Shown piece by piece: positions 12,678 through 33,248 of a stretch of DNA of 41,145 bases. Where the stretch lies: assembly GCA_001784875.1 (NCBI GenBank), contig MFSH01000014.1, positions 1 to 41,145 on the forward strand, given 5' to 3'. The stretch is from Candidatus Moranbacteria bacterium RIFOXYB1_FULL_43_19 (GTDB lineage: Bacteria > Patescibacteriota > Minisyncoccia > Moranbacterales > UBA11712). A model generated the notes under the pieces. It did no database searches, was not told the DNA's origin, and was given only the letters and a program-made list of their open reading frames with translations. The translations under genes and the position numbers were made by a program. Every line of letters begins with the position of its first letter. The stretch's first letter is position 1.

Positions 12678-13703
12678 ATGTTTCGAATGCTTCTGGGAAA
12701 GGTTCCCCTCCGGCTCTCTATGGGCGGAGGTGGAACCGACATTGCGTCTTTTTATCAATCGGAAGGCGGTTTTTGGACTTCAGCGGCTATTTCACTGTAT
12801 GTCCGGCTAACCGTCAACCGGCGGTGGGACAATCTATGGGTAGTCAAGTATTCTAACAACGTTGACCGGGTTACAGACGTGGCAGAAGTTGGACACCCCA
12901 TCTTTAGGGAAGCTCTTCTTCTGCTTAAGGCTCAAGATTGGCTCAAGGGAAAAGGACTGGAGATAAACATCATCTCCGACGTTCCCACCAAGTCTGGCTT
13001 GGGAGTTTCCGGAGCCATAGCAGTAAATTTTCTGGAAATTCTCCACAAAATGAAAGGCGACGGAATATCTCGTCAGGCACTGGCCGAAGAAGCTTATCAC
13101 GTTGAATTTGAACGGTGCGGATCGTCTTCGACCGGCAAACAAGACCAATACATCGCCGCAATCGGAGGGATCACTTCCTTCGAGGTTACCCGAAAAGGCC
13201 ATGTGGATATTCTTCCCCTGAACCTGGAAAATCGTACTCTGTTGGAGCTAAACGAAAATCTGGTTCTCTTCGGCACGGGAACCGTAAGACCAAAATCCGC
13301 CGCAGAAACTCTCCGTGATCAGGGGTTTGTTTTCTCTGGTGAAAAAATGTCTAAGGTCGACAATCTGAAAGTCATCAAAGAAATCGGCCTTGAGCAACGC
13401 GAAGCCATGCTTTCCGGGAATATCCGCCTCTTTGGTGAACTTCTGGATAAGCATTGGGAAACCAAAAAGCTCTACTCCGACCATACCGCCAATCCGGCCA
13501 TCGACGACATCTATGAGGTCGCGAAGCAGGCCGGCGCTATCGGCGGAAAAGTAGTCGGAGCCGGCACAGTCGGCGCCTATTGGCTTTTTTACGTGGAGGC
13601 TGACAAAAAATCGGCTCTCCGCGACGCCATGGCGGCCTATAACCTTCAGGAAGTTCCGTGGTCCTTTGTGGAACACGGCTCCATGATTTCCTACTGCGAG
13701 TGA
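12678..13703 (+). CDS. hddA: GHMP kinase: D-glycero-alpha-D-manno-heptose-7-phosphate kinase-like
   Basis: This 341-residue GHMP kinase shows motif 1 PLRLSMGGGGTD (10-21), motif 2 PTKSGLGVSGA (103-113, ATP phosphate loop) and motif 3 GGKVVGAGTVGAYW near residue 290. KQDQYIAAIGG is typical of the HddA/FKP-like subgroup. It would phosphorylate heptose 7-phosphate at C1 in the alpha configuration, the committed step to GDP-heptose. GGGAGGG (12664-12670) precedes the ATG by 7 bases. From here to 15646 the genes are GC-rich with C/G-ending codons, unlike those around them. Confidence 0.85.
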   Translation: MFRMLLGKVPLRLSMGGGGTDIASFYQSEGGFWTSAAISLYVRLTVNRRWDNLWVVKYSNNVDRVTDVAEVGHPIFREALLLLKAQDWLKGKGLEINIISDVPTKSGLGVSGAIAVNFLEILHKMKGDGISRQALAEEAYHVEFERCGSSSTGKQDQYIAAIGGITSFEVTRKGHVDILPLNLENRTLLELNENLVLFGTGTVRPKSAAETLRDQGFVFSGEKMSKVDNLKVIKEIGLEQREAMLSGNIRLFGELLDKHWETKKLYSDHTANPAIDDIYEVAKQAGAIGGKVVGAGTVGAYWLFYVEADKKSALRDAMAAYNLQEVPWSFVEHGSMISYCE

Positions 13704-13719
13704 GGGGGGGGTGAAAACC

Positions 13720-14334
13720 ATGAAAGAAGCGACACTGGAACTTTTTTTCAAAACCCGGCTCATGGAAGTGGGTCAAATTGCCAAAGAATTGGCAGGCCAG
13801 ATCGGAACCCTTGAGAAGATGGTAGAAATCCTTGAAGGAGTCCGCCACTTCGGCGACCGCGTTTTTTTCTGCGGAGTCGGAGGCGGCGCCGGAAACGGCA
13901 CCCATGCCGCCGGCGATCTTTTCAAGAGCTGCCGCATCCGGGCCAGCTGCCTCACCGACAACATCCCCACCGTAACCGCCATCGCCAATGACGAAGGCTG
14001 GTCTCGGGTCTTTGTGGACCAGATGGATATCCTGGGTTTCGGCTCGAATGATGTCCTCTTCGTCTTTTCGGTTGGCGGGGGCGATGCCGAGCGCGATATC
14101 TCCAAAAACATCGTGGAAGCGGTCAAATTCGCCAAAAAAAAAGGCGCCTATGTCCTCGGCGTGGTCGGAAAAGCGGACGGCTATACCGCTCAAAACGGCG
14201 ACGCCGTCATTGTGGTGCCGACCGTCAACCCGGACTACCGCACTACCCACACTGAAGCCATGCAGGGCTATATCGCCCACTTCCTCACTGAAGCCCTGCG
14301 CCAGAGGAGCGCCAAATGGGAATCGGTGAGTTAG
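13720..14334 (+). CDS. Diverged SIS-domain sugar-phosphate isomerase
   Basis: This 204-residue SIS protein sits where a phosphoheptose isomerase is expected in a GDP-heptose operon. Its active-site loops differ from GmhA: CGVGGGAGNGTHAAGD (51-66) has Asp where GmhA has the catalytic Glu, SVGGGDAERD replaces STSGNS, and the residue aligning with the catalytic His of QEIH is about Q182. It may be a distinct isomerase subfamily or use another phosphosugar. A long G-run (13703-13711) forms the ribosome binding site; I prefer ATG 13720 over GTG 13711, which lies in that run. It overlaps the next gene by 19 bases. Confidence 0.75.
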   Translation: MKEATLELFFKTRLMEVGQIAKELAGQIGTLEKMVEILEGVRHFGDRVFFCGVGGGAGNGTHAAGDLFKSCRIRASCLTDNIPTVTAIANDEGWSRVFVDQMDILGFGSNDVLFVFSVGGGDAERDISKNIVEAVKFAKKKGAYVLGVVGKADGYTAQNGDAVIVVPTVNPDYRTTHTEAMQGYIAHFLTEALRQRSAKWESVS

Positions 14335-14927
14335 GGCTTCCAAAAGCGGTTTTTCTCGATCGGGACGGAGTGATCAATCCGCCTGTCGGGCTCGACGAGT
14401 TCGGCGGAACGGAAAGCCCGCTCCGTTTCGAAGATTTTCAAATTTTTCCCTGGACCGCCAAGGCCATCAAAATTCTCAACGGCTTTGGCTTCTATGTCTT
14501 TGTCGTCACTAATCAGCCGGCGGTTGCCAAAGAAAAAATGAGCTTGCAAGAGCTGGAAAATATGCATTTTCACTTGACCTATTGGGTCCGAGAAGCTGGC
14601 GGCATCATTGACAAAATTTATGCCTGCCTGCACCATCCGGATCCGAAGCAGGTGAAAATTCCAGCCCTCCTCACCGAATGCGACTGCCGGAAACCCAAAC
14701 CCGGAATGTTGTTTCAGGCCGCCAAAGAATTCGGGATTGACCTCCAAAAATCCTGGATGATCGGCGACACCTGGAAAGACATCCGAGCCGGCCAGGCCGC
14801 CGGCTGCCGGACGATCCTCGTCCGGAACGAAACCGATAATCGCGGCAAAACCATCAAACCCGACTTCGAGGCAGAAAACCTGCTCGAAGCGGCTGAAATT
14901 ATCTTATGGGAGGAAAACAACCAATGA
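14316..14927 (+). CDS. gmhB: D-glycero-D-manno-heptose 1,7-bisphosphate 7-phosphatase (complete zinc loop)
   Basis: This HAD-IIIA phosphatase of 203 residues has the catalytic FLDRDGVIN (D15, D17), VTNQPAV, and IGDTWKDIRAG. The zinc-binding loop is intact, with C104, H106, C122 and C124 (CLHHP...CDCRKP). It would remove the 7-phosphate of heptose 1,7-bisphosphate made by the GHMP kinase. It differs clearly from the copy at 2850, whose zinc loop is degraded. AGAGGAG (14303-14309) lies before the ATG. It overlaps the SIS gene by 19 bases and the transaldolase by 4 (ATGA). Confidence 0.9.
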   Translation: MGIGELGLPKAVFLDRDGVINPPVGLDEFGGTESPLRFEDFQIFPWTAKAIKILNGFGFYVFVVTNQPAVAKEKMSLQELENMHFHLTYWVREAGGIIDKIYACLHHPDPKQVKIPALLTECDCRKPKPGMLFQAAKEFGIDLQKSWMIGDTWKDIRAGQAAGCRTILVRNETDNRGKTIKPDFEAENLLEAAEIILWEENNQ

Positions 14928-15646
14928 AAGACGGACTATTGTTTCTTGACACCGGCGATCTTGCCGAGATCGAGAAATACCTGAAACTCGGCATCGTCGA
15001 CGGCGTCACCACCAACCCGACCATTATGAAAGCGTGCGGGGTCACCGGCGGTTTCGCTGTCATCCGCGACCGGTCCAAAGCCATCGCCGAAATGATCGGC
15101 CACCTGCCTCTCTCCCTCGAAACCTCGAGTCCCCATGGCGATGAGCAGGAAATCATCGACCAGGCGCGGAAATTCGCCTCCTGGTCCCCGAACATCAACA
15201 TCAAGGTGACCTTCACCGACCAGAACGGCAAGCTCTTTCTCGGCGTCATCAAAAAACTGGCCAAAGACCGCATCAAAGTCAACGCCACTGCCATGATGAA
15301 CGCCGAACAATGTTTCCTGGCCGCCAAGGCCGGAGCGGCTTATGTGTCCCTCTTTGCCGGACGGATAGCCAACATGGGCTACGACCCCGTCCCCGTTATC
15401 CGGCAACTGCGTGAATGGCTCGACGTATCGGGGCTTCCCGCGCAAATCATAGCCGCCTCAAGCCGCGAGTTCATCAATATCCAGCAGTGGTGGAGCGCCG
15501 GAGCGCACATCATCACCGTGACCCCGAACCTTCTCAAGCCCTTGGACCATCCCTACACCCGCGACACCGTCGCTATGTTCGAACGCGACGCCGCCGACTG
15601 GTTTCCGGGCTGGCTGGAATGGAAGGCCCGCCAAAAAAAGAAATAA
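14924..15646 (+). CDS. Transaldolase family protein
   Basis: This 240-residue protein is of the small transaldolase/fructose-6-phosphate aldolase type. It has FLDTGDLAEI (7-16), DGVTTNPTIMK (26-36), the Schiff-base lysine K94 in NIKVTFT, and VNATAMMNAEQ with AGAAYVSLFAGRIAN. A transaldolase can make or consume sedoheptulose 7-phosphate, the precursor of the whole heptose route, so its position at the end of this operon makes metabolic sense. GGGAGGA (14908-14914) precedes the ATG, which overlaps the phosphatase stop (ATGA). An in-frame ATG at 14906 is rejected because it lies upstream of that ribosome binding site. Confidence 0.88.
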   Translation: MKDGLLFLDTGDLAEIEKYLKLGIVDGVTTNPTIMKACGVTGGFAVIRDRSKAIAEMIGHLPLSLETSSPHGDEQEIIDQARKFASWSPNINIKVTFTDQNGKLFLGVIKKLAKDRIKVNATAMMNAEQCFLAAKAGAAYVSLFAGRIANMGYDPVPVIRQLREWLDVSGLPAQIIAASSREFINIQQWWSAGAHIITVTPNLLKPLDHPYTRDTVAMFERDAADWFPGWLEWKARQKKK

Positions 15647-21779: not shown

Positions 21780-24668
21780 TCAGATGCGAATGCTAAAATC
21801 CTTTTTCCCCCTTGTAAGATTTGGACTATAAAAAGGATCATTCACGATATATTTTTTCCACTTTTTTTCCATGTACTTTCTCTCTGAAATTATCCGATTA
21901 TATTTTTCCGGATATTTATATTTTATATCGCATTCGTTGTCATCTCCCCTGCTCATTGATTCGTGATGATAGAGCAAAGCATATGGAGTGTAAACAATAT
22001 TATAGCCATCTTCCCGAAGCCTTAGGCAATAATCGACATCATTAAATGCAACTGGAAGTTCTTTTTCGTTAAATCCTCCCATTTTCAAAAATAAATCTTT
22101 TTTAGTCAACATACAAGCAGCGGTAACGGAAGAATAATTTCGGATAACGTCCGTTTGGAAAAAATATCCCGGTTTGTATGAAGGAAAACCGTTAAAAGCA
22201 TGATCTGCTACGCCTAAACCAATTATTACTCCGGCATGTTGGATTGAATTGTCAGAATACAGAAGTTTTGCCCCCACGGCCCCTATTTCTCGGCGCTGAA
22301 TGTGCTCAACCATCGAATCAAGCCAGTTTGGGGAAATAATCTCTGTATCATTATTTAAAAAAAGAACATATTCTCCTTCGCAAAAGGAAACTGCATAATT
22401 ATTAATCGCGGAAAAGTTAAAATCTTTATCGTAATTAATTATTTTAATCCCTTCTCTCTTGGAGATAGAGCTTACAAATTCTAAAGTTTTTTCCTCGATA
22501 CTCCGATTATTCACCAAAATTATTTCAAAATTTCTACATTTTGTCTTTTCAAAAATACTTTCAAAGCATTTTTCCAATATTTCTATTTTATCTCTAAAGG
22601 GAATAACTATCGATATCTTTGGACTTCCGATGATTTTTCTCTTAATACGATAAGTTTTTGAAAATTTACCATTCAAGACAGTGCCCTCAATTTTGTTTCT
22701 CTGAAGATGTTCTGATAGGGCTTTTTTTGCTTTGATTGAAAAATGATCTTCCGTTTTCTCATTTCCAGTTATTGGATTGGTTTTTTTTCGATAATGATAA
22801 AGTATTTTTGGAATATGAAATATTTTTTCGCGGTTTGTTTTTTCAATGAACCGCAGAACGAGGTCATAGTCCTGCGAACCCTCGTATCCCTTTCTGAAGC
22901 CGCCAATCTCGTCTATAATTGTTTTTCTGTATACTCCTAAATGGCACGTATACATCTGGGATAGGAAAAGATCTGGCGACCAATCCGGCTTAAAATAAGG
23001 TTCAACCCTTTCCCCTTTTTCGTCAATCTTGTCCTCGTCGCTGTATATGAAATCCGCTTCGGGATGTTTGTTGAGAAGCTTTACATTTTCGAAAAGCGCG
23101 ATCGGCGCCAATTCGTCGTCATTGTCAAGAAGAGCGACGAATTCTCCCGTCGCCATTTTCAAAGCTTCATTTGACGCTCCGGAAATATGCTGGTTTTTTG
23201 TCCCGAATTTTATTTTAATTCTCGAATCAGAGCCCTTCCATCTCCTGAGGCATGCTCTTGTCGTTTCTTTGACTGAAGCATCATTATAAAGGCATAATTC
23301 CCAATTTTCATAAAATTGGTTTTTAACGGATTCAATGCATTTGTCCAGCCACTTCGGATCGACGCTATATACCGGCGTGATGATTGAAATTTTTGGTTTG
23401 TATTTGAATTCTCCTATCTCTTTCTTAATTTCAACCCGATCCCATTTTTCATTTTTATCTATCCATATCTCGTAATCTTTTTTTGGTTTTTCATTCCGGG
23501 ATCTCGATTTGAAATAATCCCACCCGTGTAAAATGTATTTTCCCGCCGCCCACCAAAATTTTTGATATCTGCCTGCCGAAAGTGTTTCGAGAGCTTTTGA
23601 GGCGAGTTGGACAAAATGCCTAGACCGAAAACGCTGCAATTTTATATACCGGTTTCTCAAAATCCAGAATTTCGACGACCTCATCAAGACAATCTCCTTT
23701 TCTTTTTCCTTTATCTTTTCATATAAGGGAACTAATGCTTCTGCAATTTCATATTTGCAACTGTCGACTTTTTTCTTGATTTCCTCTTCTTTTTGTCTGA
23801 TTTCTCGATTAAGTTTATTTATTATATTTTCTCTTTGAAAAAGTGCTTCTTTTAACTTCTGTTTGTCCTGTTCGATTAATAAACTGACATCATAAATTCC
23901 CTGGTTTATTTTCGAAAAATTATTTTTTTCGATTGAAGCAATATATTTCTTGTATAGATCTTTGCTTTGCGTGAAATTATTTCCTTGAACATATTTTTGG
24001 AAATTATATTCAAAATCACCAAAATAGTCCTTTTTCTGGACACCGAGAAATTTCAAGAGCTCATCGAAACTGATTATTCGATTAGGATTGTAAGCACGAT
24101 TTTTAAAATAAAAATAGAAAAAACTCCTATAAATTATATAGTCATACGGAATCGGAAAATTGAAAGTCCATTCATAATCAATAAGGGCATACTCATTTTT
24201 CTTTCTATCATAAATTATGTTATCAAGATTTAGGTCTATACATCCAACATGCAAACACAAAATTTTCTCTTTCGTATAATTTCCAAATATCTTCTTAAAT
24301 TCTTCGGATAGAGGTTGTTCAATTATTTTATTCTTCTTTATAAAACTCAAATAGTTATCGGATAACTTCAAAAATTTTTCTCTATCTCCTTTAATTACTG
24401 ATTTCAGCAAAAGACCTTCCAAAAAAATATCCTCTTTATACTCAAATTTAATTTTTGTGTCATTTATTCTTTGGGGTTTCACTGGTATTATTGAAAAATT
24501 TGCAGACAAAAGATTTTCATATTTTGAGAAAAAAGAATTCAGAAAAATATCTGATTCTTTCCGCAGGCTAGTTTTTGCAGAAAATAAAAAGCTATTTTCC
24601 CTCTCGATTGTCGTGAGCAACTGAAACTCCTTCTTTCTATTTAAGTTGTGTTTGGAGTAAATAATCAT
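21780..24668 (-). CDS. Kinase-like domain, coiled coil and two GT2 domains in one protein
   Basis: From the ATG one base after the upstream stop, the protein has 962 residues. Residues about 10-240 look like a small-molecule/sugar kinase: LHVGCIDLNLDNI holds the DxxxxN pair (about D145, N150), and LIDYEW is the metal-binding aspartate (about D164). Residues about 265-330 are a charged coiled coil (KLNREIRQKEEEIKKK). GT2 domain A starts near 425 (ISIITPVYS, LLDNDD, SDEDKID); GT2 domain B starts near 684 (ISIVIPFRD, FLNNDTEI, QHAGVIIG, FNDVDYCLR). Kinase plus coiled coil next to a methyltransferase recalls WbdD, which caps O-antigen chains. Here it appears split from the methyltransferase and fused to glycosyltransferases. 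Confidence 0.8.
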   Translation of the reverse strand: MIIYSKHNLNRKKEFQLLTTIERENSFLFSAKTSLRKESDIFLNSFFSKYENLLSANFSIIPVKPQRINDTKIKFEYKEDIFLEGLLLKSVIKGDREKFLKLSDNYLSFIKKNKIIEQPLSEEFKKIFGNYTKEKILCLHVGCIDLNLDNIIYDRKKNEYALIDYEWTFNFPIPYDYIIYRSFFYFYFKNRAYNPNRIISFDELLKFLGVQKKDYFGDFEYNFQKYVQGNNFTQSKDLYKKYIASIEKNNFSKINQGIYDVSLLIEQDKQKLKEALFQRENIINKLNREIRQKEEEIKKKVDSCKYEIAEALVPLYEKIKEKEKEIVLMRSSKFWILRNRYIKLQRFRSRHFVQLASKALETLSAGRYQKFWWAAGKYILHGWDYFKSRSRNEKPKKDYEIWIDKNEKWDRVEIKKEIGEFKYKPKISIITPVYSVDPKWLDKCIESVKNQFYENWELCLYNDASVKETTRACLRRWKGSDSRIKIKFGTKNQHISGASNEALKMATGEFVALLDNDDELAPIALFENVKLLNKHPEADFIYSDEDKIDEKGERVEPYFKPDWSPDLFLSQMYTCHLGVYRKTIIDEIGGFRKGYEGSQDYDLVLRFIEKTNREKIFHIPKILYHYRKKTNPITGNEKTEDHFSIKAKKALSEHLQRNKIEGTVLNGKFSKTYRIKRKIIGSPKISIVIPFRDKIEILEKCFESIFEKTKCRNFEIILVNNRSIEEKTLEFVSSISKREGIKIINYDKDFNFSAINNYAVSFCEGEYVLFLNNDTEIISPNWLDSMVEHIQRREIGAVGAKLLYSDNSIQHAGVIIGLGVADHAFNGFPSYKPGYFFQTDVIRNYSSVTAACMLTKKDLFLKMGGFNEKELPVAFNDVDYCLRLREDGYNIVYTPYALLYHHESMSRGDDNECDIKYKYPEKYNRIISERKYMEKKWKKYIVNDPFYSPNLTRGKKDFSIRI

Positions 24669-24669
24669 T

Positions 24670-25578
24670 TTATTTTTTCGCAAAAATAAGAAACGAATTT
24701 GCAAAAAGATCGAAACACTTATTATTTATTATATTGTCAAGGGCCAATTTTTCATTAAACAAAAATTCCCTCGACTGCGAGAGATCCACAAACGGAAAGA
24801 CGTCCGATCTGATATTGTGCTTCTGCGTTGGCAAATATTCATCGGAAAAAATTTCAATTGGAAGTTTGTAGTCCGGCATAGGATAATAAAAATCCAACTT
24901 TTCGAAACCGGCTTCTGTGAAAATATTTTTTATTTCTTCTTTTCCAAAAGTTTGAATGCCTTTGCCATCCGGATAATTTTCAATGGAGTCAAAAATTTTT
25001 CCCGTGTGATCTTCTTTTGCTCCCGCCCAGTATTTGAGACCAAATTTATTTTCAATTGCCAAAATCAAAATACCATTCTCTTTAAGGAAACTTCTTGCTT
25101 TCTTCAGGAAGTCTGTGAAGGGATTGCTTGATTTTGTATATTTCCCAGCATATTCCAACACGCCAATGAGCGTCACATAGTCAAACTTTTCCTCGTTTTT
25201 TAAATCATTTAAATTTCCTGTGATAACATCCAGATTTTTTCTGTTTTTATGTCTGTTATATATAATGTCTGAACGAATCTTCGTGAGCTCAACGGCTGCG
25301 ACCCTCTTCAATCTATCGCAAAACAATCCCGTAAGTGCTCCGCACCCTGCGCCTACTTCAAGAAGAGTCTTATTTTCGCCGAAATCATACCAACTCAAAA
25401 TATTTTCCCGCACCCGGGAAAAATGATACCTCATCGGCCAATTAGGATCGTCGCGTAATATTTTTTCAATCTTATCCTCAAAATTATCAGACTTAAGAGT
25501 GCTTAAAATATCATTCTCGATACTGCCGTCGGAATATTGTTCTTCTTCTTTCGAATACGCTAGATCTCTGGATTTCAT
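24670..25578 (-). CDS. SAM-dependent methyltransferase, possible partner half of a WbdD-like cap enzyme
   Basis: This 302-residue protein has motif I LLEVGAGCGALTGLF near residue 71, FDYVTLIGVLEYAG (motif IV), and ILAIENKFGLKYWAGAKEDH. The last part, FYYPMPDYKLPIEIFSDEYLP, is a stretch I associate with methyltransferase domains of multidomain surface-glycan proteins. Its stop is one base from the start of the kinase-GT gene, so the two are coupled and in some relatives may be one polypeptide. A role in methylating or methyl-phosphorylating the non-reducing end of a glycan is inferred from this pairing and from the Wzt with a C-terminal binding domain. Confidence 0.82.
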   Translation of the reverse strand: MKSRDLAYSKEEEQYSDGSIENDILSTLKSDNFEDKIEKILRDDPNWPMRYHFSRVRENILSWYDFGENKTLLEVGAGCGALTGLFCDRLKRVAAVELTKIRSDIIYNRHKNRKNLDVITGNLNDLKNEEKFDYVTLIGVLEYAGKYTKSSNPFTDFLKKARSFLKENGILILAIENKFGLKYWAGAKEDHTGKIFDSIENYPDGKGIQTFGKEEIKNIFTEAGFEKLDFYYPMPDYKLPIEIFSDEYLPTQKHNIRSDVFPFVDLSQSREFLFNEKLALDNIINNKCFDLFANSFLIFAKK

Positions 25579-25611: not shown

Positions 25612-26316
25612 TTATTTTCTTTTTAGCAAGTAATACATTGACCCCCTGTCTTCTACTCGTTCATTCCCTTCAAGCTCGTTAAATGTGAAATCTACAATTG
25701 AAAAATTATTTTTCAGCAAAATATCATTCAGATAACTTTTATTGAATCGGCATCCCCATGTCCATCCCGGTGCCGGCGATTCAAAGTATGGAGCAAAATC
25801 AAACAATTTGTTGAGAGAACAAGCGGTTTGAATTATCAAATAATTCGGCTTGTGTTTATCGGCAATCTTTTTGATTAGTTCAGGCGGATCATATATGTGA
25901 TATAATCCTCCGCAGCACAATACAATATCATATTCAAATGCGTTTTCAAATTTAAAAACATCTTCGGCAAATATTTTTATTTTGTCTTCAATATTCCATT
26001 TATTGATAAGTATTTTTGCCTGCTGAAGCGCAAGTTTGTCGCTATCAACACAATGTACTATATTCGCTCCATATTTCTCCGCATAAAAAGCATAGTAACA
26101 GTCAGCAGAAAATAAATCCAGAACGGAAATATTTTCTTTGCTGCTTGCTTTCGTTTTCTCTATGGCAAGACGTAAATAGCTTAATATTATTCCTTCTTTG
26201 CTAACTTGATTTAAAGGATAAATCCCTCCCTTTTGAAGATTATCAATGCCAAGGGACTTAAAAGAATGATACCAATCACCGAGAGTATTGATATCTTCGT
26301 TGTTTTCTTTTTTCAT
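25612..26316 (-). CDS. SAM-dependent methyltransferase
   Basis: This 234-residue protein has motif I VLDLFSADCYYAFYAEKYGA, an acidic CVDSDKLAL, and YDIVLCCGGLYHIYDPPELI. Motif I is atypical (LFSADC in place of the glycine-rich loop), similar to methyltransferases with the DUF1698 or CmoB flavour, yet the context is a glycan locus. It follows wzt by 3 bases and precedes the next methyltransferase by 33. The target may be a sugar hydroxyl on the exported polymer; this is inference. Confidence 0.8.
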   Translation of the reverse strand: MKKENNEDINTLGDWYHSFKSLGIDNLQKGGIYPLNQVSKEGIILSYLRLAIEKTKASSKENISVLDLFSADCYYAFYAEKYGANIVHCVDSDKLALQQAKILINKWNIEDKIKIFAEDVFKFENAFEYDIVLCCGGLYHIYDPPELIKKIADKHKPNYLIIQTACSLNKLFDFAPYFESPAPGWTWGCRFNKSYLNDILLKNNFSIVDFTFNELEGNERVEDRGSMYYLLKRK

Positions 26317-26319
26317 GGC

Positions 26320-27588
26320 TTAATTCCAATAATGTTTGACATCTATTGCCCCCCTGTATCTATTTTTCTCATTTACAGAAAAAACTTGAAATTTTTTTGC
26401 CTTCTCAACAAAATCGTAATATTTCTCTTCAATCTTTCCAAAGCAAATGCAATTTAGAAAATAGTTCCCTTTAAGCAGCGGAATCGAGTCGAAAGATAGA
26501 TCAATATATTCAGCGTTAGGCGGTATGCTGTATTCATCCATTTGGGTGTTATATCCAAATATATAACTATTATCATCCTTATATAATCCAATTCCGATAT
26601 TTATATTCTCCGTCTTCTTGTTTTTCTTAAAATAAACCCTTACTGAAATATCATCTCCAGTTTGAAAAACATTTTTGACATTACCGCTTCTGTCTAAAAA
26701 ATCAACTTTGGTTATTTCCACATTTTTTTCAATAGCTGTTTTCTCTTTGTGATTCTTTATATTTTTATTTTTTTTCGCACTTTCATTAATGTGTCTTTTT
26801 TCCTCATCAGACATATTCTGAAAAATATACTTATTCCCGACATCCTCTGATTTTCCCATCATCTCAATTTTTCCATCGCGAAGGAGCATCGCCCGGTCGC
26901 AGTATCTTTGGACAGTTGCAATATCATGAGTAACCAAAACCACTGTTTTTCCAAAATCGCGATATTTGTTGAACTCCTCAAGGCATTTGCTTTGGAAATT
27001 CACATCCCCCACCGCCAGCACTTCGTCCATGAGGAGTATGTCCCGGTTGGCGTGGATAGCTACGGAAAAAGCCAAGCGCACTTGCATCCCGGAAGAATAG
27101 TTTTTCACTTTCTGGTCAATGAAGCGCCGCAGTTCCGAAAATTCCACAATATCATCGAATTTTTCGTCGATTTGCTTGTGAGTGAGCCCCAAGACAGTCG
27201 CATTGAGATAAATGTTGTCCCGCCCCGAAAGCTCCGGATTGAAACCAATTCCCAGTTCCAGAAACGGCGAGATGCGACCATTAATTTTTACCCCGTGAAA
27301 TTCGCCCTTTGGGCGAGAGCCTTTGGCGTATTTCACCGGGGTGTCCGGTTGGTATATCCCCGCGAGAATTTTGAGAAGCGTTGATTTCCCGCTGCCGTTG
27401 CGCCCGATGATTCCGAAAAACTCCCCTTTCTTCACTTCAAAACTGACGTCGTCGAGCGCCTTGAATTCTTCGTATCCGTTCGAGTGGAACGCATTCACAA
27501 AAGCTCCCCGAAGAGTCGAAATTTTCTCGTGGGGGATGCGGAAAGTCTTGCTGACATTTTCAACTTTTATCGCTATTTCTTTTGTCAT
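26320..27588 (-). CDS. wzt: Wzt: ABC-transporter ATPase for polysaccharide export with C-terminal glycan-binding-like domain
   Basis: The protein has 422 residues. Residues 1-255 form the ATPase: Walker A GRNGSGKST (62-70), signature YSSGMQVRL (164-172), Walker B ILLMDE (184-189) and H-loop H221. The FHGVKINGRISPFLELGIGF stretch is typical of Wzt/TagH. Residues about 290-405 are predicted beta-rich (VEITKVDFLD, IGIGLYKDDN, NYFLNCICFG), matching the Wzt C-domain that recognises the chain cap in E. coli O8/O9a. It works with Wzm (32469), now separated by about 4.9 kb. The HEPN gene ends 6 bases upstream, and a diverged copy of the first 28 codons lies at 28687-28770. Confidence 0.92.
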   Translation of the reverse strand: MTKEIAIKVENVSKTFRIPHEKISTLRGAFVNAFHSNGYEEFKALDDVSFEVKKGEFFGIIGRNGSGKSTLLKILAGIYQPDTPVKYAKGSRPKGEFHGVKINGRISPFLELGIGFNPELSGRDNIYLNATVLGLTHKQIDEKFDDIVEFSELRRFIDQKVKNYSSGMQVRLAFSVAIHANRDILLMDEVLAVGDVNFQSKCLEEFNKYRDFGKTVVLVTHDIATVQRYCDRAMLLRDGKIEMMGKSEDVGNKYIFQNMSDEEKRHINESAKKNKNIKNHKEKTAIEKNVEITKVDFLDRSGNVKNVFQTGDDISVRVYFKKNKKTENINIGIGLYKDDNSYIFGYNTQMDEYSIPPNAEYIDLSFDSIPLLKGNYFLNCICFGKIEEKYYDFVEKAKKFQVFSVNEKNRYRGAIDVKHYWN

Positions 27589-27594
27589 ACTATT

Positions 27595-28065
27595 TTAATA
27601 TTGAAATAATTTTTTTTGCGGATTTTTCTTTTGCACCAATTTTTCAATTTCAGACACAAATTCTTTCGCTGATGAAATCGCGTTTTTCGCTTCCGTTTCA
27701 GAAATTGACAGCCCCGCTCCATAGATAAGATAATGCCTGTTTTTTCTCATTTTATCAAATTTGAAAACGAGAATGGTTTCTTCTTTTCCAAGAACCTTTT
27801 CAACGAAGCCGATTGTGATCTTGTGCGATCCGGCTGCTCTTGGCTTGAAGCCATGCGAAAAAATGAGAGCTCTTCCGGAGAGAAGCATCGCTTCATAGGC
27901 AAGCTGATAGCTTCCTTCGAAATCGCCATCCGCGAAAAGAACTTTCGCGCTCTTCGCGCTTCTTTGGGCTTTCGCGAGCACTCTGACCACTTGGGAAAAA
28001 TCTATTTTCTCCTTCCTGATGAGGCCCTTATCAATGAACTCTTGGAATGCCTTCATTGCCTCCAA
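27595..28065 (-). CDS. HEPN-domain protein (toxin partner of MNT)
   Basis: This 156-residue helical protein has the HEPN pattern: AYEAMLLSGRALIFSHGFKP, SHKITIGFVEK, and the active-site-like KMRKNRHYLIYG. The RKNRHY stretch stands where ribonuclease HEPNs have RX4-6H with a nearby tyrosine, the tyrosine being the residue that MNT enzymes adenylylate in HepT/MntA pairs. It overlaps the MNT gene by 35 bases. It ends only 6 bases before wzt, so wzt is probably translated from the same message. Confidence 0.78.
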   Translation of the reverse strand: MEAMKAFQEFIDKGLIRKEKIDFSQVVRVLAKAQRSAKSAKVLFADGDFEGSYQLAYEAMLLSGRALIFSHGFKPRAAGSHKITIGFVEKVLGKEETILVFKFDKMRKNRHYLIYGAGLSISETEAKNAISSAKEFVSEIEKLVQKKNPQKKLFQY

Positions 28066-28615
28066 TCAAAAAAATTATTGGTTTTGACAAAATTCCGCTT
28101 ATGAAAAAATCTTTTCCTTTGATTCTTTTGGCAAATTCTTTTTGGCTGAAGATATGATAATTTATTTCCCTGTCCAGCCGATTTTCCAGTTTTGAAATTT
28201 TTCTTACCAGCTGATTTTCATCAATTTCCCCGACAATCATGAGGTCTATATCCGAGAGAGAATCCTCTTTGCCATTCGCAAAAGATCCGAAAACAAAAGC
28301 TGTCTTTATCCCTTTTATTGAAATTAGGGATTTTTTCAGTTCGCCCTGCGCTCCAATCGTTTTAGAGACGATACTTTTCATTTCGGAAAAAATTGGCGAA
28401 TCGGTATTCAGAAAATAATATACTTGATTGCCCTGCTTTTCCCGCGTGAATATCCCGTTTTTTTCCAAAACAAGAAACTCTCTCCGGATGTTTTGCACCG
28501 GCAAATCCAAAATTCTTTCCAGTTCGCGGAGATAATATTTTTTTTCGGGATGAGCAAAATAAAGCCCAAAAATGGCTTTTCTGATTTTGGAATTGGTTAT
28601 TTTCAATATATCCAT
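28031..28615 (-). CDS. wHTH-MNT nucleotidyltransferase (antitoxin of the HEPN/MNT pair)
   Basis: This 194-residue protein has a winged helix-turn-helix at the N-terminus (residues about 5-68, YLRELERILDLPVQNIRREFLVLEKNGI) and a minimal nucleotidyltransferase after it: GSFANG (110-115) and SDIDLMIVG with metal aspartates D122 and D124. MNT enzymes inactivate HEPN toxins by adenylylating a tyrosine. The DNA-binding domain suggests it also represses its own promoter, and a repeated operator-like sequence begins 3 bases upstream of the ATG. The fused regulator plus enzyme makes the module self-controlling. Confidence 0.82.
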   Translation of the reverse strand: MDILKITNSKIRKAIFGLYFAHPEKKYYLRELERILDLPVQNIRREFLVLEKNGIFTREKQGNQVYYFLNTDSPIFSEMKSIVSKTIGAQGELKKSLISIKGIKTAFVFGSFANGKEDSLSDIDLMIVGEIDENQLVRKISKLENRLDREINYHIFSQKEFAKRIKGKDFFISGILSKPIIFLIGGNEGIPRVH

Positions 28616-28617
28616 AC

Positions 28618-28660
28618 TGTAATCCTTTCTGATTACAATTGTAACACTTTCTGATTACAA
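28618..28660. promoter_or_regulatory. Operator-like repeats before the MNT gene
   Basis: CTTTCTGATTACAA occurs twice (28625-28638 and 28647-28660), 22 bases apart, i.e. on the same DNA face. Each copy is half of an inverted repeat: TGTAATC-N6-GATTACA (28618-28637) and TTGTAACA...TGATTACAA (28639-28660). The position just before the start codon fits autorepression by the winged-helix MNT protein. Confidence 0.7.
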
Positions 28661-28686
28661 AGGCAATGCTTTTCTGCTATCTGAAA

Positions 28687-28770
28687 CCCTCGCAGAGTCG
28701 AAATCTTCTCATGGGGAATGCGGAAAGTCTTGGAAACGTTGTTGACTTGAATCGCGATATTTTCACTCAT
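28687..28770 (-). pseudogene. Stub of a wzt gene (first 28 codons)
   Basis: From ATG 28770 the frame reads MSENIAIQVNNVSK...STLRG, matching residues 1-28 of the intact Wzt with a few substitutions. It then loses similarity and stops at 28633. At the DNA level the match is high over about 50 bases but not identical. It marks where wzt probably began before the HEPN/MNT pair and a second wzt 5' end were placed here. Confidence 0.82.
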
Positions 28771-28833
28771 ATTCAACAAAATCAGTATACAACTAAACGT
28801 TCGATGAATCAACCGGAAAAGGAAAGGTTTCTG

Positions 28834-28862
28834 TTGACTTTTCGCTTTTATTTTGGTATACA
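28834..28862 (+). promoter_or_regulatory. Strong promoter of the zinc-ribbon-like gene
   Basis: TTGACT (28834-28839), exactly 17 bases, then TATACA (28857-28862), with TGG immediately before the -10. This is close to the sigma-70 consensus. The start of transcription would be near 28869, giving a leader of about 32 bases. Confidence 0.8.
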
Positions 28863-28900
28863 GAATGGAAGCCAAATCCCAGTTTCAAAGGAGGAGAAAT

Positions 28901-29771: not shown

Positions 29772-32318
29772 CTACTCTATTTTCATCTCTTCGAGAATAC
29801 CGGTCAGATAGTCCTTCCCTTCCAAGTCGATTTTCTTCGGATAATCGCGGCTGATCTGAAAAATCAGTCTTTCGATATGCCTGTTGGCTTTTGATTTTTG
29901 CTTTCCCGCGGCTCTTTCTTTTTTCTCTGTTTCATATTTTTTGAGGTGGACGCGGATATGCCCGAGTTTTTTGCTGATTATTCTTGATTCTCTCCTCGTT
30001 TTGACGCGGCCGGTTTTGAAAAAATGCCTCACTGACCCTTTGAGGTCATCCAGTTTCTGGATGTTGTTTTGCTTTTCTTTTTTTCCTTTTTCTTGCTTTG
30101 AAGAATTGTCCGAATTGTTGTTTTGACTGTTTCCCTTCGCACTTTTATCTTCTTTCCCGGGAGATTTTGACATTTCCACCTTTTTTCCGGTAACTTTGAA
30201 CCCCATTGAGGTCTCTTTCCCTTTTTCGGCAATGCCGGAAAAGGCCGCTCCGGCATCTTCGCCTTCATTTTCTTCGCCTTCCGCCACTTTCACGATTTCA
30301 ACCCTGTATTCCCCTGTTCCCGTCCCCTCGGCCAGGATTTCGTATTCTCCGTTTTCCGGATTGGGAATGGTGAGAAATTCGGTGTTTGTTTCGAAACCGG
30401 TATAATATGCTCCCTTGATTTCATTGTATTCCCCGCCCGTCTCGAAATTTTTTCCAAGCCGTTTTCCGCTTGGCGAAACGATTTGGATATCAACCGGAGA
30501 AAATACCATTCCGATGAGGATATCATCGATTCGCCATTCTTTCACCTCTTTTGTTGGCCTTTTTCCAGTCAGGATTTCAAGTATATTTTTTTGGGCATCG
30601 GTCGGAAGAATGTTATGTTCTGATTGAAGATATACAATCTTATCAGTAGAAATATCAGACGCTTCAGCGGAAAAAAGCGGCACGGTACCATCGCCGTAAT
30701 CTTTTATTATTCCTTGCCTGTTTAAAACAGGTACATCGAAGTATTTAGGATAGCCATGCCTCCAGTAATCTGATTTATCACTATCTATGACATTGTAGCT
30801 CGACACTGTGCTTGTTTCATTAATAGTTTTCCCAATAATCTTTATAAACTCAATATTTTCCAGCTTTTTTGTTTTTTCAGCACTGTTCAGATTTTCTAAA
30901 AATTCATTTCGCGGATAATTATTCGGATATGTATTTCGCAAATTGAAATCATCTCCGTCTTCGTCGTAAAGATACTTATATACCGGCAATAGTTCTTCTA
31001 CTGACTCCATGGGACGCTCATGAATATAGTCAAAAATATCCGAGTAGCCTTCCTCTTTCGCTTCTTGATTCATTATTCTTTCGAATACAGGACTCCAAAC
31101 TCCCAAAAACTCCCCTGCTTCCCATGTCACATAATCCTTCGGCGCGCCTAGATGCGGCGTACCCACCGTGATCAGCTGGTCAACATCATTTTCATAATAG
31201 CTTGATTCAATATATTCCCTCGCGAGCAAACCTCCCATTGAGTGAGCGACAATATCCACTTTCGGCCGGCCGGTTTCATTTTTTATGTCCTCAATTCTTT
31301 TCTGAAGCAGTTTCGCGTTTTCAATGTTGCTGTCCCGCCACTGGTAGGGAAAAACCGAAAGCTCTTTGCCGTCGTTTTCATATCCCGCCTCGATGAACGC
31401 CTCGATCAGATTGTCATAAGTATGAAAAATCGGATCAATCTGCCACACTCCATCTTTCTCCCACGACCCCATAATCCCTGGAATGATAATAGCCGGATCT
31501 GGCCCATCCTTTCCTATCCAGGGATCAAAAATCACCCCATTCGAAACCCGGTCCCCTTTTCCATCCGGATTGAGAGTCGAATGATAGGGCCCGCTCCAGC
31601 TTCCCCACCAGTTATCTTGGGCGTATATCTTGTTGTAGTTTGGGTATTTGACTTTGGCGCCATAATTGACATTTTTTTCAAAAAAATTTTTGGAGGCAGT
31701 TAGCGAAACTCCACGCGTGCAATCATTCAAGGCGATTCCTTCTGCGTTGTCTGAAAAGGTATTGTTCTCAATCGTTTGGTCAGGATTATAGTTCATGTAT
31801 ATTCCCGCGTATTTGTTGTGTCTGAACTCTGAACTTTTCACCGTCACGCTTTTAGGATTGTTGGGCTGGAGAGAAAGCGTCCCCCAGGGATGTTCTCCGC
31901 CATACAAAAACCAGGCATTTTCAAAATGAGCAATGGCATTGGAACCGATCAATATTCTATACCAATAACCGGCTTTGGGCTTGTGCGCTCCAAGGTCTTC
32001 ATTTGTGTCGCCGCCGTTTTCATCATCCGTCCAGGCAGTGAAAATAATTTTTTCTTCCTCCGTCCCTATGGCTGTGATGGAATTGTTGAAGGTCGCGGAC
32101 GCCGCCTGTTTGAACTTAACAACGACCCCGGGCTCGATAGAGACCGGGGTGTTTACGTTCAAAGTTGCGCAAACGACGTAGGGGCTGCCCGCTTTTGTCC
32201 AAACGGACGGAATCGGTTCGTTCGAGCATAAATTGGTGGCAGCGCGCGTTCCAAAAGGCAACAAAAAAACAACGCCGAAAACGAAAAATCCAAAACATGC
32301 ATATTTTCCCCTTCTCAT
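29772..32318 (-). CDS. Secreted beta-helix and lipase/esterase (alpha/beta hydrolase) protein
   Basis: The protein has 848 residues. A signal peptide (1-26, FFVFGVVFLLPFGTRA) is followed by a right-handed beta-helix-like part (about 50-240, with IENNTFSDNAEGIAL and KNFFEKN repeats ending in DNWWGSWSGP). An LCAT/lipase-like hydrolase follows (about 275-580): oxyanion region IIIPGIMGSW, nucleophile AHSMGG (S360), acid YGDGTVP (D543) and histidine SEHNI (H568). The C-terminal 150 residues are charged, low-complexity and basic. The beta-helix may bind polysaccharide while the hydrolase cleaves an ester or lipid. GGAGG stands only two bases before the ATG. Confidence 0.82.
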   Translation of the reverse strand: MRRGKYACFGFFVFGVVFLLPFGTRAATNLCSNEPIPSVWTKAGSPYVVCATLNVNTPVSIEPGVVVKFKQAASATFNNSITAIGTEEEKIIFTAWTDDENGGDTNEDLGAHKPKAGYWYRILIGSNAIAHFENAWFLYGGEHPWGTLSLQPNNPKSVTVKSSEFRHNKYAGIYMNYNPDQTIENNTFSDNAEGIALNDCTRGVSLTASKNFFEKNVNYGAKVKYPNYNKIYAQDNWWGSWSGPYHSTLNPDGKGDRVSNGVIFDPWIGKDGPDPAIIIPGIMGSWEKDGVWQIDPIFHTYDNLIEAFIEAGYENDGKELSVFPYQWRDSNIENAKLLQKRIEDIKNETGRPKVDIVAHSMGGLLAREYIESSYYENDVDQLITVGTPHLGAPKDYVTWEAGEFLGVWSPVFERIMNQEAKEEGYSDIFDYIHERPMESVEELLPVYKYLYDEDGDDFNLRNTYPNNYPRNEFLENLNSAEKTKKLENIEFIKIIGKTINETSTVSSYNVIDSDKSDYWRHGYPKYFDVPVLNRQGIIKDYGDGTVPLFSAEASDISTDKIVYLQSEHNILPTDAQKNILEILTGKRPTKEVKEWRIDDILIGMVFSPVDIQIVSPSGKRLGKNFETGGEYNEIKGAYYTGFETNTEFLTIPNPENGEYEILAEGTGTGEYRVEIVKVAEGEENEGEDAGAAFSGIAEKGKETSMGFKVTGKKVEMSKSPGKEDKSAKGNSQNNNSDNSSKQEKGKKEKQNNIQKLDDLKGSVRHFFKTGRVKTRRESRIISKKLGHIRVHLKKYETEKKERAAGKQKSKANRHIERLIFQISRDYPKKIDLEGKDYLTGILEEMKIE

Positions 32319-32468: not shown

Positions 32469-33248
32469 TTATATATCCTCCGCGATTTTGGGTTCGAGTT
32501 TTTTGAAGATGAAGAGGCTGGCTGCAAACAAAACAACCACCAGTGAAGAAAAGACGCTGATCTGCGTCAAGGTCGGATAGTGACTTTCCGTCAAGGCCAA
32601 TTTATTGAAGTGGATTATAAACCCGATTGGATTGGCAAGAAGTATTGTGTGATACTTGGCAGGAATAATCTGCAAAGGATAAACGATCGGCGAGCCATAG
32701 AAAAGGGCCTGGATCGCCACTTCCCAAATTTGAAGCAAATCGCGGTACTTTACGTATAGCGGCGCGACGATGAAAGAAAATGCGAGAATAAGCAGAAAAG
32801 TCAGGAGAATAAAAAAAACAAACATCAAAATCGCCGGAATGCCCGGCCAAAATCCCTGCCAGGCAAAAAATGCGGCAATGATGATGAGGTTCATCCCGAA
32901 AATCAATGTGGCGTTTATCGTCGAAGCGGCAACGATCGTCCAGCGGGGAACATAAATTTTCGTGACAAGAGAGGCTTTTCCGAGCAGCGAATTGAGGCCG
33001 GCCATCGTGCCTTCCGAGAAAAAGTTGAAAAGCATGATAGAAGTGAGAAGTTGGAGCGAGAAATGCTGGATGCCGGAATTTCTCGGATTGAAAATTGTCG
33101 AAAAAACAAAGTTGAGGATCAAAAAAGTGAGGAGCGGCTTGAGAAGCGCCCATACATACCCCAGAACCGAGCCGTGGTAGCGCAATTTAAAATCAGTCCG
33201 GGCAAGTGCCCAGACCAATTCCCAATAATTTTCGTGCCTTTTGGCCAT
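32469..33248 (-). CDS. wzm: Wzm: ABC-2 type permease for polysaccharide export
   Basis: This 259-residue protein has six membrane helices. The N-terminal amphipathic stretch ELVWALARTDFKLRYHGSVLGYVWALLKPL (13-42, read in two pieces) is the classic Wzm/TagG start, and YGSPIVYPLQIIP with NPIGFIIHFNKLAL marks the family's end. It forms the channel for Wzt (26320) and carries completed lipid-linked glycan across the membrane. The two genes normally sit side by side; here three genes, a TA pair and a wzt stub lie between them. Confidence 0.92.
   Translation of the reverse strand: MAKRHENYWELVWALARTDFKLRYHGSVLGYVWALLKPLLTFLILNFVFSTIFNPRNSGIQHFSLQLLTSIMLFNFFSEGTMAGLNSLLGKASLVTKIYVPRWTIVAASTINATLIFGMNLIIIAAFFAWQGFWPGIPAILMFVFFILLTFLLILAFSFIVAPLYVKYRDLLQIWEVAIQALFYGSPIVYPLQIIPAKYHTILLANPIGFIIHFNKLALTESHYPTLTQISVFSSLVVVLFAASLFIFKKLEPKIAEDI

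Follow-up and report, generated by a model that had tools for sequence, protein, structure and literature searches.

The window analysed here, a stretch of 41,145 nucleotides from a genome of 1.0 Mb, carries on its minus strand a methyltransferase gene followed by the gene of a large protein with kinase and glycosyltransferase domains. With a probability of about 0.7, this pair is a split version of the methyltransferase-kinase chain terminator known from the Klebsiella O7 antigen, joined to a two-module GT2 polymerase and working in a Wzm/Wzt-dependent glycan pathway. This reading builds on features observed in the locus, namely the gene order, the identity of the domains, the conservation of catalytic residues, the fold of the kinase and the homology to proteins with the layout of O7 ORF6.

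The probable terminator pair and its export operon

The methyltransferase of the pair (hereafter MT; 24670-25578, minus strand) is a 302-aa protein of the O7-ORF6 type that matches Pfam Methyltransf_23 (1.1e-9), and it abuts the large protein just as the sequence-only reading of this DNA had described. In the large protein, of 962 aa, a kinase domain resembling APH is followed by a long, predicted helix and by two GT2 domains; the true start of the protein is likely the ATG at 24668, one base past the MT stop codon (24670), and not the TTG at 24704 given in the open reading frame listing. At this junction (24668-24681, minus strand) the MT gene ends with AAA AAA TAA, one base ahead of the next ATG (AAA AAA TAA AATG). 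A +1 frameshift at the stop codon, which would fuse MT with the large protein, is possible in principle, and no support for it was found.

Both genes share the minus strand with a Wzt gene (26320-27588) and an additional small methyltransferase gene lying between Wzt and MT (25612-26316), and the intergenic gaps span 1-33 bases, being 3, 33 and 1 bases in order from Wzt through the small methyltransferase and MT to the large protein. The small methyltransferase, of 234 aa, matches Methyltransf_31 (1.1e-8) and, at a score under the cut-off of that model, TIGR04290 (6e-10). The Wzt protein combines an ABC transporter ATPase domain (PF00005, 3.6e-21) with a C-terminal domain of carbohydrate-binding type at residues 287-415 (PF14524 Wzt_C, E=2.2e-20, above the curated cut-off), so that the long C-terminal domain claimed for a Wzt of this operon is indeed present; a search of PDB sequences with this C-terminal domain alone gave no match. 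Its likely partner is a 259-aa Wzm-like ABC-2 permease encoded at 32469-33248 on the minus strand (PF01061 ABC2_membrane, 8.4e-14). A split Wzm had been suspected at 27595-28615, and the two reading frames there were found to be overlapping genes, on the minus strand, for a nucleotidyltransferase (PF01909) and a HEPN protein (PF05168).

Several other features of the surrounding DNA deserve mention. The nucleotidyltransferase and HEPN genes, which look like an MNT-HEPN toxin-antitoxin pair within the export operon, are located between the intact wzt gene and a broken Wzt start: the first 84 bases of wzt (27506-27589) are duplicated upstream at 28688-28771 with 76% identity, as a broken copy in the reading frame 28633-28875, much like an old start that stayed in place when a Wzt-terminator cassette was exchanged. 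Between the Wzm-like gene and wzt (29772-32318, minus strand) there is also a gene whose 848-aa product combines a beta-helix domain with an alpha/beta hydrolase domain of the LCAT/lipase-like kind. On the plus strand, at 12678-15646, genes for a GHMP kinase, a SIS protein and a HAD protein follow one another, a set reminiscent of a nucleotide-heptose pathway; a transaldolase-like gene and an epimerase gene come next.

Domains of the large protein and of the methyltransferase

The kinase domain occupies residues 1-245 of the large protein (23936-24668, minus strand). Pfam gave no credible match to the first 400 residues of the protein, the kinase-like N-terminus included, and a profile of the kinase searched against PDB sequences retrieved only weak matches to JAK1 and to designed proteins. 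The AlphaFold model has a pLDDT of about 96 across residues 1-235, and its Foldseek matches include APH(3')-Ia, PRPK/Bud32, LicA, macrolide kinases and AmiN. In an alignment of 89 kinase domains, D145, N150 and D164 are identical in all 88 relatives that have a letter at the position, as are W167, P174, R181 and R11, and K32 is kept in 87 of the 89. The kinase-like N-terminal domain postulated from the DNA is therefore real, and since the catalytic residues are invariant, the model confidence is high and the fold matches include kinases, it is very probably an active kinase of the small-molecule or sugar type and not a degenerate one. A search of viral contigs with this kinase returned no relatives.

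The two GT2 domains, which had also been predicted, are certain. PF00535 matches the large protein with E=2e-46 in two stretches, the best of them at residues 439-599, and the GT2 motifs are found at about 515 (DNDD), 599 (QDYD), 772 (NND) and 876 (NDVD). The first domain (residues about 424-670; 22661-23399, minus strand) has its best PDB sequence match in the chondroitin synthase 2z87 (2.4e-21), and the second (residues about 690-935; 21866-22601, minus strand) matches PF13641 (2.4e-14 at 694-913) and PF10111 (1.1e-13); both are likely polymerase modules.

The segment between the kinase and the first GT2 domain includes a long charged helix at residues 251-331 (23678-23918, minus strand), a candidate coiled-coil spacer. 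The coiled coil that had been claimed for this region is thereby borne out as a predicted helix and not as a coil with recognizable heptads. AlphaFold places a single helix over these residues with a pLDDT of about 43-88, mostly low to middling, and a proline lies inside it at position 314; by a simple heptad test, periodicity does not exceed that of shuffled sequences, either in the best 28-residue window (equalled by 87 of 1000 shuffles) or over the whole helix span (p=0.85). The helix has 81 residues and at 1.5 Å per residue would reach at most about 12 nm. The model thus hints only faintly at a coiled-coil ruler in the large protein, and control of chain length by this helix is a possible function. 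An S-x-W-x-[LI] motif follows the helix in some relatives (SSKFWIL in the window, STSWKITKPL in others); it was dismissed as a general motif of the family, the strict form being present in only 14/87 loci, some of them by chance.

In MT the residues Y51, G76, G78, E97 and Y143 stand at exactly the spacing published for the SAM site of the O7 enzyme, and the distance between Y15 and Y51 is 36 residues vs 38 in O7. This spacing was found in 43 of the 1902 open reading frames of the fetched loci, and all 43 belong to the MT family, whose members also share an invariant IENKxGxKY..G..EDH block.

Kinship with O7 ORF6 and variation within the family

The closest characterised case is ORF6 of the Klebsiella pneumoniae O7 locus, described by Kelly et al. 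2024 as a single chain in which a methyltransferase and a cryptic APH-like kinase are followed by an Ig-like CBM, a coiled coil and two GT2 domains (PMC11231755). The structure nearest to the cryptic kinase is AmiN, and in vitro the terminal rhamnose is phosphorylated and then methylated, an activity abolished by the D441A mutation (PMC11231755). The authors left it uncertain if the CBM is needed, and stated that the kinase of ORF6 is unlike that of WbdD in sequence and structure; methyltransferase and kinase reside in one polypeptide in O7 and in the orthologs that they aligned (PMC11231755). The two GT2 modules of O7 are absent in some orthologs.

For the comparison, a 1457-aa single-chain protein encoded beside an ABC transporter on a plasmid of Pseudomonas asturiensis was taken as an ortholog of ORF6-O7, on the basis of the published residue positions and not of the ORF6-O7 sequence: its Y28, Y66, G91, G93, E112 and Y158 fall exactly where they were published for O7, and the catalytic Asp, D443 in this protein, compares with D441 in O7. 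The MT (E 1.6e-73), kinase (34.9 bits) and GT profiles of the window family match this protein in the same order, the GT matches covering residues 917-1159 and 1168-1419, and the kinase profile aligns D145 of the window with D443. The shared residue spacing and the ordered profile matches tie the window to the O7 type, with which it has in common the SAM-site residues, the APH-like kinase, a coiled coil or predicted helix, the two C-terminal GT2 domains and the Wzm/Wzt operon. It differs from O7 ORF6 in that MT is a separate gene, in that the model shows the helix directly after the kinase with no CBM seen, and in that this helix looks short and weakly coiled. The window pair is a split variant of an O7 ORF6-type terminator, and thus of a known kind.

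Nor is the joining of capping and polymerase modules the new arrangement that the sequence-only reading took it for, since O7 ORF6, O12 WbbB and WsaE already combine them. According to the O7 authors, WbbB of K. pneumoniae O12 holds polymerase and terminator in one chain (PMC11231755); like the proteins of interest here it has two polymerase GT modules, whereas its terminator is a Kdo transferase instead of a kinase plus methyltransferase and its GT modules belong to other families. In WsaE of Geobacillus stearothermophilus, which serves the Wzm/Wzt-dependent S-layer glycan of a monoderm, a capping methyltransferase is joined to two rhamnosyltransferases in one protein (PMC2943079), whereas the reported cap is a 2-O-methyl group and no kinase is reported. 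The further claim that polymerase and terminator form a single chain in the window stands for the kinase, which is fused to the GT2 modules, and not for MT, which is separate; only the first capping step could be intramolecular.

Relatives of the kinase domain were sought in 380 genomes of the phylum, and only 10 had them; in most cases the domain was fused to a methyltransferase of the window type or encoded next to one. When the MT alignment was run against 84,980 species genomes, at least 355 relatives came up, and the 80 loci that were kept belong mostly to Clostridia and Paenibacillus; the rest include Sulfurovum and a Methanomassiliicoccaceae archaeon. The kinase is fused to or adjoins MT in 87/87 loci; most loci were found through MT, so this means that the kinase adjoins MT, and the reverse does not follow. 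A Wzt with a C-terminal domain lies upstream in 73/87.

The modules are combined in several ways. The kinase has no GT2 and a separate MT alongside in 40/87 loci, and MT and kinase are fused in 25; a separate MT with a kinase chain bearing two or more GT2 segments is seen in 12, the window included, one relative among these having a frame broken inside the second GT2. The remaining arrangements are kinase-GT2 (6/87) and MT-kinase-GT2 in one chain (4/87), the latter being the full fusions that the earlier reading had suggested looking for among relatives; some frames end at contig ends, and every count for GT2 is a minimum. A quick tree with several long branches was built from MT and kinase domains joined together; it requires 10 changes in MT-kinase fusion, at least 8 of which are forced by starred branches, and about 16 changes in GT2 joining. 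The nearest relative of the window on this tree, from another genome of the phylum, also has a split MT and lacks the GT2 fusion. Because these changes recur on the tree, the arrangement in the window is a recurring one and not new. Splits and joins are common in the family, and the "split and re-fused" history read from the DNA captures just one among the many states of a family that has gained and lost fusions.

Two other loci are described here for their own sake. In another genome of the class (L099, 420-2595, minus strand), an MT-like protein with an apparent N-terminal zinc-ribbon-like stretch adjoins a kinase of the APH type in which the HGD motif is plain, and the two may represent a distant form of the pair. 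A conjugative plasmid of Citrobacter braakii (L097, 7923-9872, plus strand) encodes an MT-kinase-helix terminator together with rhamnose genes and an ABC transporter, and the position of its Mg-binding Asp aligns with a Glu (FEREW).

Proposed mechanism, alternatives and significance

It is proposed that a lipid-linked glycan would be lengthened in the cytoplasm by the two GT2 domains, and that its non-reducing end would receive a phosphate from the kinase domain, which lies at the opposite end of the polypeptide from them. The adjacent MT, acting in trans, would place a methyl group on this phosphate; the resulting cap would halt growth, and the C-terminal domain of Wzt would select the capped chain for export, as C-domains of Wzt bind caps in characterised cap-dependent transporters (PMC9445017). 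Inferred parts of this scheme are the substrate, the methyl-phosphate chemistry, the termination, the action of the helix as a ruler and the recognition by Wzt.

The name "WbdD-like", under which the pair was initially read, is too specific, O7 ORF6 being closer. WbdD, from E. coli O9a and K. pneumoniae O3, resembles the window system in capping through a methyltransferase and a kinase, in a helix that follows the kinase and in a Wzt with a cap-reading domain, whereas its kinase is Src-like, its trimeric coiled-coil ruler measures about 20 nm (PMC5082667) and it has no GT domains, recruiting WbdA instead. That the pair is nevertheless a true WbdD homologue with kinase and ruler rearranged is quite improbable. 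The order methyltransferase-kinase-helix is common to both, and the D-x4-N then D spacing is similar to that of D351/N356/D369 in WbdD; moreover, for a naturally fused MT-kinase protein of the family (L033), the model (pTM 0.88) matches the WbdD structures 4ax8, 4azt and 4azs over both domains, across 553-565 columns with E about 1e-9. That superposition, however, has a TM of about 0.27 and an rmsd of 18 Å, the kinase profile has no sequence match to WbdD in the PDB at E<=10, and WbdD is absent among the best 50 Foldseek matches of the window kinase. The structural comparison upheld the kinase fold; taken alone, the domain prefers the folds of APH, PRPK and LicA over WbdD, aminoglycoside kinases being the best matches.

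Two further explanations keep the domains and change their roles, and each is unlikely. The cap might consist of a methyl group only, with a structural kinase-like domain and an MT that methylates the terminal sugar directly, for which the one-chain MT-GT2-GT2 protein WsaE and the WbdD of O8 offer precedents; in a dead kinase, however, the strict conservation of Asp, Asn and the Mg-binding Asp (88/88), with the Lys nearly invariant, would be unexpected. Alternatively, the kinase and MT might decorate the glycan internally or, as LicA does, modify a lipid or small molecule, and would then have no part in chain ending. The small-molecule kinases LicA and APH among the fold matches fit such a role, against which speak the Wzt with a cap-reading C-domain in 73/87 neighbourhoods, the repeated fusion to GT2 polymerase modules and the fact that the characterised O7 relative is a terminator. 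The split O7-type terminator joined to a GT2 polymerase is accordingly the preferred reading.

The locus is otherwise unremarkable within its modular and widespread family, and the interest lies mainly in the family-wide pattern. A terminator defined in Klebsiella O7 is hereby carried over to a bacterium with a tiny genome and to many monoderm loci; the monoderm and tiny-genome bacteria of the family would lack LPS. It may be, although we hold this as a tentative idea with somewhat less than even odds, that capping kinases and GT2 polymerases were fused and parted over and over in monoderms, an archaeon and tiny-genome bacteria. An intramolecular ruler would then be a recurrent means of length control in a very widespread and little studied form of capped glycan export, and the window would illustrate how the two capping steps may fall to two separate proteins. 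The naturally fused and split pairs offer material to ask whether joining the terminator to the polymerase tightens the control of chain length.
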